NCBI RefSeq assembly: GCF_009014635.1
Contig: NZ_BKCF01000001.1
Location: forward strand, 1,302,001-1,366,000
Reading direction: 5' to 3'
DNA length: 64,000 nucleotides
Source of the DNA: Patiriisocius marinistellae
GTDB taxonomy: Bacteria; Bacteroidota; Bacteroidia; Flavobacteriales; Flavobacteriaceae
A model generated the notes under the pieces. It was not told the origin of the DNA. It searched no databases and worked only from the letters and a program-made list of their open reading frames with translations. A program made the translations under genes and the position numbers. Shown piece after piece: positions 140-63,539 of the stretch (positions within the stretch are counted from its first letter, which is position 1; the number at the start of each line of letters is the position of its first letter).

Positions 140-1261
140 ATGAAATACCAAACAAGAAAGAAAGCGCTTATTTTACTTGCAGATGGAACCATATTTTACG
201 GTAAAGCCGTAGGAGGGAAAGAAGGTTCTTCTTTTGGTGAAGTTTGTTTTAATACAGGGATGACTGGGTATCAAGAAATTTTTACAGATCCATCTTATTT
301 TGGGCAATTAATGGTGACTACTAATGCGCATATAGGAAATTATGGAGTTAACCATGAGGAAATTGAAAGTGAAGGAATTAAAATTTCTGGACTTATATGT
401 CGAAATTTTAGTTATCATTATTCTCGTGATTTGGCAGATGATTCTTTAGAGAATTTCTTAGATCAAAATAATTTACTTGCTATAAGCGATGTTGACACGC
501 GTGCCTTAGTAAGTTACATTAGAGATCATGGTGCAATGAACGCGGTTATTTCTACAGAGGTTGATAATATCGATGGACTTAAAAAACAACTTGCTGCTGT
601 TCCAGACATGAATGGATTAGAGCTAGCAAGTAAAGTTTCAACAAATGAACCTTATTTCTTCGGAAATGAGAATGCCTCATTTAAAGTCTCCGCATTAGAC
701 ATTGGTATTAAGAAAAATATTTTACGAAATCTTGCCGAAAGGGATTGTTACATCAAAGTATTTCCATACAACGCATCTTTTGAAGATATGAAAAATTTTA
801 ACCCAGACGGATACTTTTTGTCAAATGGTCCTGGAGATCCAGAGCCATTAACACAGGCAATAGAGACTACTAAAAAAATTATAGAAACCGGAATGCCATT
901 GTTTGGTATTTGTTTGGGGCATCAAGTATTAGCATTAGCTAATGGAATCTCAACTTATAAAATGCACCATGGGCATAGAGGGATTAATCATCCTATCAAA
1001 AATTTATTAACTGGAAAAGGAGAGATTACATCTCAAAATCATGGTTTTGCAATTAATAGAGAAGAAGCTGAAGCTCATGCAGATGTTGAGATTACACATG
1101 TACACCTTAATGATCACACGGCTGCAGGAATACGTATGAAATCAAAACCAGTATTTTCAGTTCAATACCATCCAGAAGCTAGCCCAGGACCACACGATGC
1201 TTCTTATTTATTTGACCAGTTTTTAGATAACATTAAAAAGTCGGCAGCAGTTACTAATTAA
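140..1261 (+). CDS. carA: Carbamoyl-phosphate synthase small subunit
   Basis: This is the glutamine amidotransferase subunit of carbamoyl-phosphate synthase. It releases ammonia from glutamine for the large subunit, feeding arginine and pyrimidine synthesis in the cytoplasm. The 373 residues match the usual family length. The N-terminal CPSase_sm domain is followed by a class I glutaminase domain. The nucleophile Cys lies in GICLGHQ near residue 257, with the His/Glu pair in YHPEASPG near 344-346, and SNGPGDP is present. The ATG at 140 follows an A-rich stretch. No carB is in the window, so the large subunit must be elsewhere. eno follows 56 bases later on the same strand. The gene carries a copy of the CTTCGGAAAT word at 658. 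Confidence 0.97.
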   Translation: MKYQTRKKALILLADGTIFYGKAVGGKEGSSFGEVCFNTGMTGYQEIFTDPSYFGQLMVTTNAHIGNYGVNHEEIESEGIKISGLICRNFSYHYSRDLADDSLENFLDQNNLLAISDVDTRALVSYIRDHGAMNAVISTEVDNIDGLKKQLAAVPDMNGLELASKVSTNEPYFFGNENASFKVSALDIGIKKNILRNLAERDCYIKVFPYNASFEDMKNFNPDGYFLSNGPGDPEPLTQAIETTKKIIETGMPLFGICLGHQVLALANGISTYKMHHGHRGINHPIKNLLTGKGEITSQNHGFAINREEAEAHADVEITHVHLNDHTAAGIRMKSKPVFSVQYHPEASPGPHDASYLFDQFLDNIKKSAAVTN

Positions 1262-1317
1262 TTATAGCACACATTTCCGAAGAGAATTTTTTTTAATAAA
1301 CCATTAATAGTTACATC

Positions 1318-2604
1318 ATGAGCAGTATCATTGACATTAAAGCAAGACAAATTTTTGATTCAAGAGGAAACCCTACGGTTGAAGTAGATGTAATTACAGA
1401 ACTTGGATACATTGGGCGAGCTGCGGTGCCTTCTGGAGCATCAACGGGAGAACATGAAGCAGTTGAGTTGCGTGATGGTGGAAAAGACTATATGGGTAAA
1501 GGAGTTTTAAAAGCCGTCGAAAATGTTAATGGAAAGATTGCGGGTACATTGCTTGGAGTTTCAGTTTTTGAACAAGCTGAAATTGATCAAATTATGATTG
1601 AGCTTGATGGAACAAAAAATAAATCAAAACTTGGCGCAAATGCTATTTTAGGCGTTTCTCTTGCGTGTGCAAAAGCTGCAGCAAATGAATTGGGTTTACC
1701 ATTATTTCGTTATGTTGGAGGTGTTAGTGCATTAACACTACCATTGCCAATGATGAATATTATCAATGGAGGTTCGCATAGTGACGCACCAATCGCTTTT
1801 CAAGAATTTATGGTAATGCCAGTAAAGGCAAAGAACTTTACTGAAGCTATGAAAATGGGTTCTGAAATTTTTCATAACCTTAAAAAAGTACTTCATGATA
1901 GAAATTTAAGTACTGCTGTAGGTGATGAAGGAGGTTTTGCTCCTACACTTGACGGTACTGAAGATGCGTTAGATACTATCAAAAAGGCTGTTGAGAATGC
2001 GGGATATAGTTTTGGTGACGAAATTATGATAGCATTAGACTGTGCAGCAGCAGAATTTTATGTGGATGGTAAATACGACTACTCAAAATTTGAAGGTAAA
2101 TCTGGAAAAGTAAGAACTAGCAAGGAGCAAGCAGATTATCTGGCCGACCTTTCAGAAAAATACCCAATAATCTCTATTGAAGATGGAATGGATGAGAACG
2201 ATTGGGAAGGATGGAATTATTTAACACAACAAATAGGGGATAAGGTGCAGTTAGTGGGTGACGATTTATTTGTGACAAATGTAGATCGTTTATCTAGAGG
2301 TATTGATGAAGGTACAGCAAATTCTATACTTATTAAAGTTAATCAAATAGGTACTTTAACCGAAACTATCGCAGCTGTTAATATGGCTCATAACGCAGGA
2401 TATACATCAGTTATGTCTCATAGAAGTGGAGAAACTGAAGATAATACCATTGCAGATTTAGCTGTTGCATTAAATTGTGGACAGATTAAAACTGGTTCTG
2501 CCTCTCGTAGTGATCGTATGGCAAAATATAACCAATTATTACGTATTGAGGAACAACTTGCAAATGTGGCTTATTTTCCTGGATTGAAAGCGTTTAAAAT
2601 TTAG
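1318..2604 (+). CDS. eno: Enolase (phosphopyruvate hydratase)
   Basis: Enolase interconverts 2-phosphoglycerate and phosphoenolpyruvate in glycolysis and gluconeogenesis and needs Mg2+. The 428 residues are full length. Recognisable segments are the N-terminal [12 protein letters not shown], the substrate loop [17 protein letters not shown], the metal-binding region [14 protein letters not shown] and the C-terminal catalytic segment [10 protein letters not shown]. The start is fixed by the conserved [17 protein letters not shown]. The 56-base gap after carA holds one ATTTCCGAAG word and no clear terminator, so the two could be co-transcribed. A strong hairpin follows at 2624-2663. Confidence 0.98.
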
Positions 2605-2623
2605 GAAGTAGCTATTTAGGCAA

Positions 2624-61893: not shown

Positions 61894-62046
61894 TTAATCC
61901 AAAGCGTTTTTAGTTACCCAAAGCTTATATCCAAAAATTGCCATTTGAAATTTTGAAGCTTTTGCTAAATCCAACTTTTTTTTTGTGAAGCTTGGAAGTA
62001 TTGCTTTATTTATTTTAGCGAGTGTTTTGAAAATAGATTTTTTCAT
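61894..62046 (-). CDS. 50-residue conserved-looking basic protein
   Basis: An ORF from the ATG at 62046 to the stop at 61894-61896. It starts MKKSIFKTLAKINKAILPSF and ends MAIFGYKLWVTKNALD after a Lys-rich middle (TKKKLDLAKASKFQ). I associate very similar short proteins in flavobacteria with a wrong label of SsrA-binding protein; there is no SmpB fold here. Its stop abuts the apt stop. The end-on arrangement and coherent codon use support a real gene. Confidence 0.6.
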   Translation of the reverse strand: MKKSIFKTLAKINKAILPSFTKKKLDLAKASKFQMAIFGYKLWVTKNALD

Positions 62047-62212
62047 TCTTTAAAAGTATAACCTTCTTGATTGCAAATTTACGATTAAACTTCTAAATGG
62101 TTAGTTAACAAATTGTTTAAAAACTCAATTCTTGTTTTGTGAATAAATTAGAAATCACATCTCAAAAATTATTTTTCAATCAGTATCTTCGCATCCTTAA
62201 TATAATAATAGT

Positions 62213-63166
62213 ATGAGTCTTCTGTATGTTTTTCTTGGATTAGTATTGCTTGTTGTAGGCGGAGAATTTCTCGTTCGCGCTGCGGTGGGATTATCATTTA
62301 AACTTAAATTATCAAAAATGGTAATAGGTTTGACGGTAGTGTCCTTTGCTACATCTGCACCAGAATTATTAGTAAGTATTCAAGCAGCAATGGAAGGTTT
62401 TAGTGATATATCTATAGGGAATGTGATAGGCTCAAACATTGCAAATATAGGCTTGGTTCTAGGAATCACAGCAATAATTGCCCCATTAACTATTGATAAG
62501 GATTTTTACAAATTTAATTGGCCAGTGATGATGATTCTCTCTGTCACACTCTATTTTATCCTAGCCAGCGGCAATGTAATCACTGCAATCGAAGGAGTTG
62601 TATTATTATTAATGTTAGCGGTTTATTTATTTATTCTTATTCGTCGTGCAAGAAAACAACCCATAAGTGCTGATACTGTTGAGGAAATCGATGAGGGTCT
62701 TTCAACGGTTTCAAATGTTAAGATTATTATTTGGTTATTAATTGGTGGTACTGCGCTGTATTTTGGTAGTGAATGGCTTGTAAGAGGTGCGGTTGATATC
62801 GCTAATTATTTTGAAGTTAGTGAGCGTGTAATAGCTATCACAATGATTGCTGTAGGAACTAGTGTTCCAGAACTTGCAGCCTCTGTAATTGCCGCGTTAA
62901 AAAAAGAAAAAGCACTTTCATTAGGAAATTTAATAGGGTCAAACATTTTTAATATCGCTTCAGTTTTAGGAGTTACAGCATTAATACAGCCTATTGCTTT
63001 AAAAAGTCCAGAGGTATTAACTAGTGATATTTGGTGGATGATGGGGTTTGCTGCTGTGCTTATTCCGTTAGCTTTTTTGCCTAGAAAGTTTGAGATAGGG
63101 AGGATCAAGGGGCTTACAATTGTTGTCGCATATTGTGTTTTTGTTAGTTTAGCTTTTATAGGATAA
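62213..63166 (+). CDS. Calcium/sodium antiporter family protein (YrbG-like)
   Basis: A 317-residue inner-membrane exchanger with ten or so helices in two inverted repeats. Each half has an alpha-repeat: SFATSAPELLVSIQAAM with SIGNVIGSNIANIGLVLGI, and AVGTSVPELAASVIAAL with SLGNLIGSNIFNIASVLGV. These carry the Glu and Asn/Ser residues that bind Na+ and Ca2+. A short acidic cytoplasmic loop (EEIDEG) separates the halves. It has its own upstream region and precedes a 373-base gap before the glutamine synthetase gene. Confidence 0.95.
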   Translation: MSLLYVFLGLVLLVVGGEFLVRAAVGLSFKLKLSKMVIGLTVVSFATSAPELLVSIQAAMEGFSDISIGNVIGSNIANIGLVLGITAIIAPLTIDKDFYKFNWPVMMILSVTLYFILASGNVITAIEGVVLLLMLAVYLFILIRRARKQPISADTVEEIDEGLSTVSNVKIIIWLLIGGTALYFGSEWLVRGAVDIANYFEVSERVIAITMIAVGTSVPELAASVIAALKKEKALSLGNLIGSNIFNIASVLGVTALIQPIALKSPEVLTSDIWWMMGFAAVLIPLAFLPRKFEIGRIKGLTIVVAYCVFVSLAFIG

Positions 63167-63539
63167 TATTTTATTTACAACTTCGGAAATATATCTACGG
63201 CAACTTTTTAGTTATTCAATTACAATTTTAGTTTTAGAAGCGATGTTATTTTATACCTTAATATATAGGTATATAAATTCTTAAATTATTTTTTGTCATC
63301 AGTTTTTTACCAATATCTTATTGTCTAAATTTTTGTATTAGTAATTTATTTCAGAAGAGAGACTAGAAATATTATTTTGTTTTCATATTTATACATATTT
63401 AATTTTGACTTCTTAGATAAATTAGGGGGTGTGTTGTTTAAAAACAACAATTATTAATAAGTTAACATTAAAAAATAGGGGGTGTGTTTGTAAAAAGTTT
63501 ATTTTTGTGCTTTAATTTAATATAAACACACTTTAAAAT
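63167..63539. promoter_or_regulatory. 373-base regulatory region of the glutamine synthetase gene
   Basis: No gene is seen in this AT-rich gap. It holds a CTTCGGAAAT word at 63181, an inverted repeat TATACCT-N8-AGGTATA at 63252-63273, a 13-base direct repeat TAGGGGGTGTGTT at 63423-63435 and again at 63476-63488 (53 bases apart), a hairpin TGTTGTTT-AA-AAACAACA at 63432-63449, and GTGTGTTT (63482-63489) / AAACACAC (63524-63531) flanking the -7 box. The architecture suggests a regulated promoter. Confidence 0.6.
63500..63507 (+). promoter_or_regulatory. -7 element TATTTTTG of the glutamine synthetase gene
   Basis: This is a perfect TAnnTTTG match 32 bases before the ATG at 63540. Its upstream flank is occupied by the second direct repeat copy. 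Confidence 0.65.

Follow-up and report, generated by a model that had tools for sequence, protein, structure and literature searches.

To our knowledge, DNA uptake sequences are known only from the Neisseriaceae and the Pasteurellaceae, both of which use type IV pili, and the origin of self-recognition by such sequences is debated. As described in the published passages cited here, uptake sequences show no orientation bias, are found in non-coding DNA above expectation and display a mismatch gradient, and in Haemophilus influenzae 65% of the copies of the uptake signal sequence (USS) lie in open reading frames (ORFs) and about 10% occur as inverted repeats (PMC1939737). They are depleted in genomic islands, with the DNA uptake sequence (DUS) of Neisseria found once per 400-1100 bp (PMC7371117), and they come in clade-specific dialects (PMC3630211). 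Among the Flavobacteriaceae, Riemerella was reported as the first competent member (PMC8459023), and R. columbina is described as favouring its own DNA (PMC7965970). Here we analyzed a 64,000-nucleotide stretch of Patiriisocius marinistellae (contig NZ_BKCF01000001.1, positions 1,302,001 to 1,366,000; hereafter the window), in which an earlier note had pointed to a massively over-represented 10-base word, CTTCGGAAAT. Our results suggest that CTTCGGAAAT is probably an uptake-sequence-like word of Patiriisocius and a wider group of Flavobacteriaceae, undescribed in the open Bacteroidota literature that we searched. We keep to the label "uptake-sequence-like" because the class is defined by a measured effect on uptake and the word is known here from sequence alone.

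The window contains 19 exact copies of CTTCGGAAAT, 12 on the plus and 7 on the minus strand, at the positions that the earlier note had given (Table 1). By count it is the top-ranked 10-mer of the window, followed by TTTTTAAAAA and TGAAATTTCA with 12 each. The expected number is 0.11 on both strands under a third-order Markov model and averages 0.09 (maximum 2) in dinucleotide shuffles, bearing out the previous estimate of well under one copy per 64 kb. When up to one mismatch is allowed, 35 matches are found against 4.37 expected for the whole set, including 16 one-mismatch copies where at least seven had been claimed. The longer sub-groups also stand in the site list, namely CTTCGGAAATTTTA (the four copies marked in Table 1), TAATATTTCCGAAG at 6072, 38485 and 47075, and 20 bases shared between the surroundings of 658 and 4845, and FGN, ISE, TSE and FPK are all present among the peptides encoded at the copies. 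Seven of the 19 had been called intergenic. Five are so by a crude ORF caller, which worked by length alone (at least 90 aa) rather than as a gene finder, and two more (19093 and 37639) are uncertain; since both lie at doubtful GTG or TTG starts, a count of seven is plausible.

The excess extends to the whole 3.34-Mb genome from which the window comes (G000). There CTTCGGAAAT occurs 833 times (428 on the plus and 405 on the minus strand), or once per 4.0 kb, compared to 16 times for the reversed word, and the 14-mer CTTCGGAAATTTTA occurs 159 times compared to once for its control. In an 864-kb sample, made up of the window and 800 kb from contig 1, we found 237 copies against 1.7 expected under a third-order Markov model, and CTTCGGAAAT had the top score among the ranked 8- to 12-mers, with low-complexity words excluded. 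The same model predicts 0.22 copies in 400 kb of the sister genome G006, where 76 were found. The constraint is on DNA rather than protein, as previously proposed: coding copies number 139 against 4.6 after within-gene synonymous codon shuffling (20 rounds), an approximately thirtyfold excess, and they use all six frames, mainly three (ISE, FGN and SEI). The shuffling rules out a codon-pair explanation. The two outcomes named beforehand as counting against the word, a near-Markov frequency and an excess from one codon pair in one frame, were thus not what we found. The reversed word is an imperfect control for A+T-rich variants since it can contain stop codons, and the Markov and shuffle controls are better. 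CTTCGGAAAT is thus firmly supported as a genome-wide, DNA-level signal.

The word has a defined context. Across 464 kb (141 copies), the four positions 3' of the core read T, A or G; T (76%); a variable base; and A (67%), and on the 5' side positions -2, -3 and -6 are rich in T (57-63%); in brief, a T-rich stretch just 5' and a W-T-T-A-like extension 3'. Much the same flanks surround the variants TTTCTGAAAT (104 copies, reversed control 12), CTTCTGAAAT (57 in 864 kb, reversed control 5), CTACGGAAAT (22, reversed control 2) and CTGCGGAAAT (20, reversed control 2), and are missing from the variants CTTCGGAAAA and CTTCGGCAAT. Relative to 60 letter-shuffled control words, the excess is 190-fold for exact copies and 5.4-fold at one mismatch, both exceeding every control. 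CTTCGGAAAT is not palindromic, its reverse complement being ATTTCCGAAG. Possible dialects are TTGCTGAAA in Marinirhabdus and TTTCTGAAAT in a further Patiriisocius genome (G004), each drawn from about 80 kb. Flank conservation outside the genus (34 sites) was unusable as evidence because many of these sites seem to represent a single orthologous position, apparently where the barrel gene discussed below ends (FFGN).

Copies are enriched between genes, a point that the earlier note had proposed to examine. In the 864 kb, 99 of the 237 copies are intergenic, in the 10.2% of the DNA that is intergenic, and 138 are in coding DNA. Densities are 1.32 per kb in tandem spacers, 1.19 in divergent spacers, 0.79 in convergent spacers and 0.18 in genes, with the density between genes 6-7 times that within them. 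Orientation was assessed by GC skew, not by a mapped replication origin, and shows no bias: the strands divide 106:112 in the 800 kb (two-sided p = 0.73), with 12:7 in the window and 44:32 in G006, neither significant.

We then compared genomes, using Patiriisocius in the database's sense (11 genomes, G000-G010). Besides G000, four are rich in CTTCGGAAAT, with 605 copies in G006, 474 in G005, 345 in G007 (Patiriisocius marinus) and 239 in G009, an assembly 59% complete; the word-poor genomes G001-G004, G008 and G010 (small, incomplete) have 6-34. Among the Flavobacteriaceae, at least 100 copies are reached by 20 of 397 genomes and 12 of 237 genera, with G000 the highest. The excess varies by degrees: at the low end of these genera, g8 surpasses its control no more than about threefold, and counts of 65-92 copies in some further genomes are also above the respective control. 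Among 49 genomes, covering all but L099 of 50 loci chosen from 80, word-rich named examples are a Psychroserpens isolate (238), Altibacter sp. HG106 (181), Aequorivita todarodis (165) and Marixanthomonas spongiae (146), and word-poor ones are Winogradskyella haliclonae (5), Nonlabens xylanidelens (1) and a Dokdonia isolate (15). CTTCGGAAAT is clade-limited and missing from most of the family.

Foreign DNA was examined in a small sample, in which CTTCGGAAAT is depleted. Contigs C9, C10 and C11 carry a type I restriction system, GmrSD proteins, DNA methylases, a reverse-transcriptase-like protein, metal efflux (identified partly by eye) and an Arm-DNA-binding domain protein. These three island-like contigs contain no copy in 48.8 kb (C9 read over 20,000 of its 22,714 bases), where the average density of the genome would give 12.2 (Poisson p = 5e-6). 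Pooling every unmasked contig among C9-C19 gives 2 copies in 78 kb against 19.5 expected, fully masked contigs (L248 and L256-L259, all N) and contigs C24-C30 being outside the test. In contig C8, which bears MutS, 7 copies were found in the 20 kb read. The largest gap between copies in the 800 kb (23.5 kb at 687350), the one gap inspected, showed no island by eye.

Competence genes, whose presence the earlier note had suggested checking, are encoded in the genus. Of its 11 genomes, 10 have ComEC and all 11 have DprA. The window's genome has both, together with a helix-hairpin-helix (HhH) protein of 314 aa. In Riemerella, transformation is reported to need ComEC, DprA, ComF and RecA. Four further essential proteins are of unknown type and include a DUF5689 protein and an adjacent barrel, and an HhH protein is also described as essential (PMC8459023). 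In G000, a DUF5689 lipoprotein gene (contig 1, 235784-237202(-), equal to L020:15784-17202(-)) has a barrel gene directly upstream (237238-239988(-)); the N-terminus of the barrel is outside the translated piece, and Pfam gave only a sub-threshold carboxypeptidase-regulatory domain for it. An ORF with a CV-x(1-3)-D-[DEY] leader stretch follows the barrel in 58 of 58 loci, the subset of 80 in which the flank was long enough and the end of the barrel had been entered. Pfam confirmed DUF5689 in seven of seven proteins (L094, L083, L109, L114, L135, L144 and L157). Two genes of the endonuclease/exonuclease/phosphatase family (PF19580) lie near the barrel/DUF5689 pair: L021:228-1277(+), divergent from the barrel and with a copy of CTTCGGAAAT in its first codons (L021:233-242), and L020:6341-7303(+), approximately 9 kb from the pair.

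Modelling of the P. marinus DUF5689 domain by itself reached good confidence (pLDDT 90), and the ten best Foldseek matches of this model in the PDB include replication protein A (RPA) of P. abyssi and of human, the p204 and MNDA HIN domains with double-stranded DNA, Teb1 and RADX. We take the RPA, HIN-domain, Teb1 and RADX structures to be OB-fold proteins, and the modelled domain weakly resembles tandem OB folds. The model of the full-length protein matches gingipain adhesin domains, a match that presumably lies in the C-terminal part. In Riemerella, a tonBA mutant is described as having lower transformation without the iron defect of tonBB, for which the authors suspect nutrient transport (PMC8383284); this phenotype would be compatible with a TonB-driven barrel and is no proof of one. 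All five word-rich Patiriisocius genomes have a strong HHH_3 match, in frames of 670-722 aa, and none of the six word-poor ones does. It was dropped as a receptor lead because the G000 copy is Tex.

How would such a word accumulate? A surface receptor of the natural-transformation machinery may prefer DNA bearing CTTCGGAAAT, which would thus raise DNA uptake, and homologous recombination would then swap chromosomal alleles for those that carry it. Molecular drive of this kind would build up copies where they are least harmful, in intergenic DNA and, whatever the frame, at protein positions that tolerate them, and newly arrived DNA would lack them. As candidate receptor we favour the DUF5689 lipoprotein, whose neighbouring outer-membrane barrel may be driven by TonB, over the tip of a type IV pilus. 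All of the published traits of uptake sequences except dialects were examined for CTTCGGAAAT and found, island depletion on a small sample.

Several observations weigh against an uptake-sequence-like word and its proposed receptor. Competence genes fail to predict CTTCGGAAAT, since six word-poor sister genomes keep them: DprA, ComEC and an HhH protein (282-308 aa) in all six, and DUF5689 in five (it was not found in G002). The candidate receptor does not track the word either, since DUF5689 of G000 shares more identity with its counterparts in word-poor sisters (56%) than with the proteins of the word-rich P. marinus (49%) and G006 (45%), and co-variation of receptor and word was not seen in this comparison. 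The structural matches have weak scores (E 2e-4 to 8e-4; TM-score by query 0.23-0.37), and the Riemerella counterparts were matched only through their Pfam domains and the order of the genes. The excess at two (1.5-fold) and three (1.2-fold) mismatches lies inside the range of the 60 control words. The regions around two integrase-like matches, 40 kb at each, are not clearly depleted, with 13 copies in 80 kb against 20 expected (p = 0.07). Site conservation, proposed earlier as a check between sister genomes, could be assessed and gave a weak signal: the alignment to G006 spans 263 kb at 73% identity, and of the 35 words in it 7 are the same in the sister and 10 fall in gaps, compared to identical-site rates of 5-10% for three classes of comparable 10-mers (p from 0.002 to 0.06 by class). 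Of the other sites, most of those with one or two differing bases are TTC[TA]GAAAT-like. This comparison is weak evidence and is consistent with fast turnover. The density of the word is about a quarter or less of that in Neisseria. Finally, near-exclusive inversion of close pairs, described below, is not required of a plain uptake word, and the inverted-pair rule and spacing are not explained by uptake alone.

These pairs bear on a different explanation, in which CTTCGGAAAT is bound by an abundant chromosomal protein (a nucleoid-associated one or a global regulator), often at inverted pairs. Neighbouring copies lie within 200 bp of each other in 14% of cases compared to 5% expected, mostly as inverted pairs. 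Among the 218 copies in 800 kb, pairs at most 120 bp apart comprise 18 in '+-' orientation, 5 in '-+' and none in tandem, and G006 has one tandem pair; examples of close inverted pairs are L026:4152-4224 and L038:13534-13568. In G000, '+-' pairs at 56-86 bp number 17 against 1.6 for uniform placement and 0 for the reversed-pattern control. Their distances clump near 61-63, 70-77 and 81-85, approximately 10-11 bp apart, and there is a tight class of inverted pairs at 24-26 bp. Helical spacing is only suggestive: a Rayleigh test at 10.5 bp gives p = 0.005 for 31 pairs from five genomes, but p = 0.05 with a free period and 0.06 for G000 alone. At least one pair is moreover orthologous between genomes, and intergenic clustering inflates the number expected by chance. 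With only 23 of 217 neighbouring copies forming close pairs, and with so many coding copies in many frames, we regard such a protein as unlikely, and we know of no chromosomal protein that would fit binding to CTTCGGAAAT. About as unlikely, if not slightly more so, is a Chi-like or chromosome-processing site read by a recombination or segregation enzyme of the RecBCD/AddAB, FtsK or MatP type. The genome-wide spread, at 20-38 copies per 100 kb with a spacing coefficient of variation of 0.94, and the three island-like contigs without copies would suit it. Chi and FtsK sites are strand-biased, however, and CTTCGGAAAT shows no significant bias by GC skew in any of the three samples; Chi and KOPS were rejected on this ground. 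The six- to sevenfold intergenic density, the 10-bp core with extended A+T flanks and variants, and the absence from most of the family also disfavour this explanation. Of the possibilities offered by the earlier note, an uptake word, a Chi-like site or another genome-wide signal, uptake fits most of the testable properties and the Chi-like site has lost ground.

Hairpins raise the question of RNA. Perfect ones were found, such as CTTCGGAAATTTTA-N7-TAAAATTTCCGAAG, and CTTCGGAAAT with its inverse could form transcription terminators or another RNA hairpin element. Nonetheless, there are just 23 close inverted pairs per 218 copies, convergent spacers are the least dense of the three kinds, and most copies are single, many of them within genes; we consider this very improbable, and intrinsic terminators were rejected as convergent spacers are not enriched and pairs are few. 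Least probable of all, and barely worth entertaining, are remnants of a transposable repeat of the MITE or REP-like kind. Copies are repeated, often intergenic and closer together than expected, though mostly as inverted pairs, but the shared sequence ends at a weakly biased flank of approximately 10 bp per side, copies are tolerated inside reading frames, and one-mismatch forms are in excess.

The uptake-sequence-like reading of CTTCGGAAAT invites a broader and much more tentative proposal. Bacteroidota might possess a pilus-independent uptake system of their own, in which a DUF5689 tandem-OB lipoprotein at the cell surface reads a lineage word and passes the DNA to a neighbouring TonB-linked outer-membrane barrel, the word being CTTCGGAAAT for Patiriisocius, Altibacter, Aequorivita and Psychroserpens and others elsewhere, perhaps CTTTCGCGAAAG in Dokdonia and Nonlabens. 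If CTTCGGAAAT does act in uptake, it would be a third, independent case of uptake sequences, in another phylum and perhaps with other machinery, and hence of convergent evolution. It would also provide a testable receptor candidate, bear on the self-DNA preference of Riemerella, offer a simple route to higher transformation of these Flavobacteriaceae and be a cheap marker of foreign DNA in these genomes. In line with the earlier note, which knew of no uptake word from the family, we found none from Bacteroidota among the matches listed in open-access full text (without preprints and most subscription papers). Likewise, a full-text search for CTTCGGAAAT itself gave nothing related by title and abstract among the matches listed.

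Table 1 Exact copies of CTTCGGAAAT and copies of its one-mismatch form CTTCTGAAAT in the window.
Feature	Position	Strand	Context
CTTCGGAAAT	658..667	+	inside ORF 140-1261 (FFGN)
CTTCGGAAAT	1273..1282	-	intergenic, stop codon 11 bp before
CTTCGGAAAT	4845..4854	+	inside ORF 4156-5070 (FFGN)
CTTCGGAAAT	6072..6081	-	inside ORF 5886-6368 (VFGN)
CTTCGGAAAT	11073..11082	+	inside ORF 10771-12564 (FFGN)
CTTCGGAAAT	11313..11322	+	inside ORF 10771-12564 (RFGN)
CTTCGGAAAT	19093..19102	+	doubtful start of ORF 19090-20493; possibly intergenic
CTTCGGAAAT	19950..19959	-	opposite strand of ORF 19090-20493 (AFPK)
CTTCGGAAAT	23452..23461	-	opposite strand of ORF 21067-23730 (ISEA)
CTTCGGAAAT extended to CTTCGGAAATTTTA	29717..29726	+	inside ORF 29221-29952 (TSEI)
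CTTCGGAAAT extended to CTTCGGAAATTTTA	32082..32091	+	opposite strand of ORF 31618-33426 (ISEV)
CTTCGGAAAT extended to CTTCGGAAATTTTA	37639..37648	+	doubtful start of ORF 37148-37660; possibly intergenic
CTTCGGAAAT	38485..38494	-	intergenic, stop codon 1 bp before
CTTCGGAAAT	45420..45429	+	inside ORF 45121-46194 (NFGN)
CTTCGGAAAT	46894..46903	+	inside ORF 46301-47056 (IFGN)
CTTCGGAAAT	47075..47084	-	intergenic, ORFs 46301-47056 / 47087-47920 on either side
CTTCGGAAAT	50651..50660	-	inside ORF 50488-51759 (TSEM)
CTTCGGAAAT extended to CTTCGGAAATTTTA	52434..52443	+	intergenic, divergent ORFs on either side
CTTCGGAAAT	63181..63190	+	intergenic, stop codon 14 bp before
one-mismatch form CTTCTGAAAT (over-represented variant)	4915..4924	-	
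one-mismatch form CTTCTGAAAT	11422..11431	-	
one-mismatch form CTTCTGAAAT	39894..39903	-	
one-mismatch form CTTCTGAAAT	50004..50013	+	
one-mismatch form CTTCTGAAAT	57153..57162	-	
one-mismatch form CTTCTGAAAT	63348..63357	-	

Other iterated words were seen in the window and in the family. A second frequent word of the window is the palindrome TGAAATTTCA, with 12 strand counts against 1 expected, along with TTCTGAAATT; it perhaps consists of overlapping inverted copies of the variant TTCTGAAAT. Dokdonia and Nonlabens (L127, L135-L138, L149 and L168-L173) carry the iterated palindrome CTTTCGCGAAAG, often as CGCTTTCGCGAAAGCG. Six of their genomes have 1173-1965 matches each to TTTCGCGAAAGC on both strands, compared to 0-3 for the control (genome counts using 50 of the 80 loci). 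In samples of 83 kb each, 12 of 21 palindromes are intergenic in Nonlabens and 4 of 10 in Dokdonia, and a text search for CTTTCGCGAAAG gave nothing related by title. Counted by strand, this palindrome is also found in Altibacter HG106 (L114; 13), P. marinus (L094, G074; 42) and Mesonia sp. K7 (L145, G102; 48), in which it is otherwise far rarer than in Dokdonia and Nonlabens. All 13 Altibacter copies lie in 100 kb of one contig (G089 C18:74147-174392), and the copies in these three genomes are perhaps islands from Dokdonia or Nonlabens lineages. In Thermobacterium salinum (L084 and L236-L239), 103 kb contain 8 copies of GAGAATTGAG where 0.15 would be expected, and this may be another lineage-specific word or a local repeat. 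Winogradskyella (L097, L120 and L130) has words around TTTCCCAACA or CCCAACATT at 5-7 per approximately 22 kb, Salegentibacter sp. R32 (L133) has 62 local copies of TAGTCATGAT, and an Aequorivita metagenome-assembled genome (L107) has 15 local copies of GTCTAACGTC.

How does CTTCGGAAAT compare with known systems? Chi of E. coli is likewise a short over-represented word, but CTTCGGAAAT is without strand bias, enriched between genes, longer in its core and flanked by biased positions. Cyanobacterial HIP1 is similarly short and highly iterated; it is a palindrome, and as CTTCGGAAAT is not, a HIP1-like palindrome was ruled out, CTTTCGCGAAAG of Dokdonia and Nonlabens being nearer to HIP1. The Riemerella system (RA0C_RS04915/04920 and others) differs in having no established uptake word in the published passages cited, where the commonest k-mers by raw count are A+T-rich and their function is left open by the authors (PMC7965970). 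It resembles G000 in its pair of barrel and DUF5689 lipoprotein, by domain and gene order, in ComEC, DprA and the HhH protein, and by the self-DNA preference reported for R. columbina (PMC7965970).

The Neisseriaceae DUS, a 10/12-mer with the receptor ComP, shares more with CTTCGGAAAT: a 10-mer in extreme excess, no orientation bias, copies both within and between genes, enrichment in permissive DNA, inverted pairs, depletion in genomic islands and a clade-limited range, as far as the cited passages describe them (PMC3630211, PMC7371117, PMC1939737). It differs in that CTTCGGAAAT lacks the CTG core, belongs to another phylum, does not concentrate its inverted pairs in convergent spacers and has no ComP-type receptor identified, type IV pilus genes not having been searched. 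The Pasteurellaceae USS is composed of a core and A+T-rich flanks, as is CTTCGGAAAT, which has another core, in another phylum and probably with other outer-membrane machinery. The proportions are nonetheless close to those described for H. influenzae, with 65% of USS copies in ORFs compared to 138 of 237 here, and approximately 10% in inverted repeats compared to 23 of 217 neighbouring pairs here (PMC1939737).

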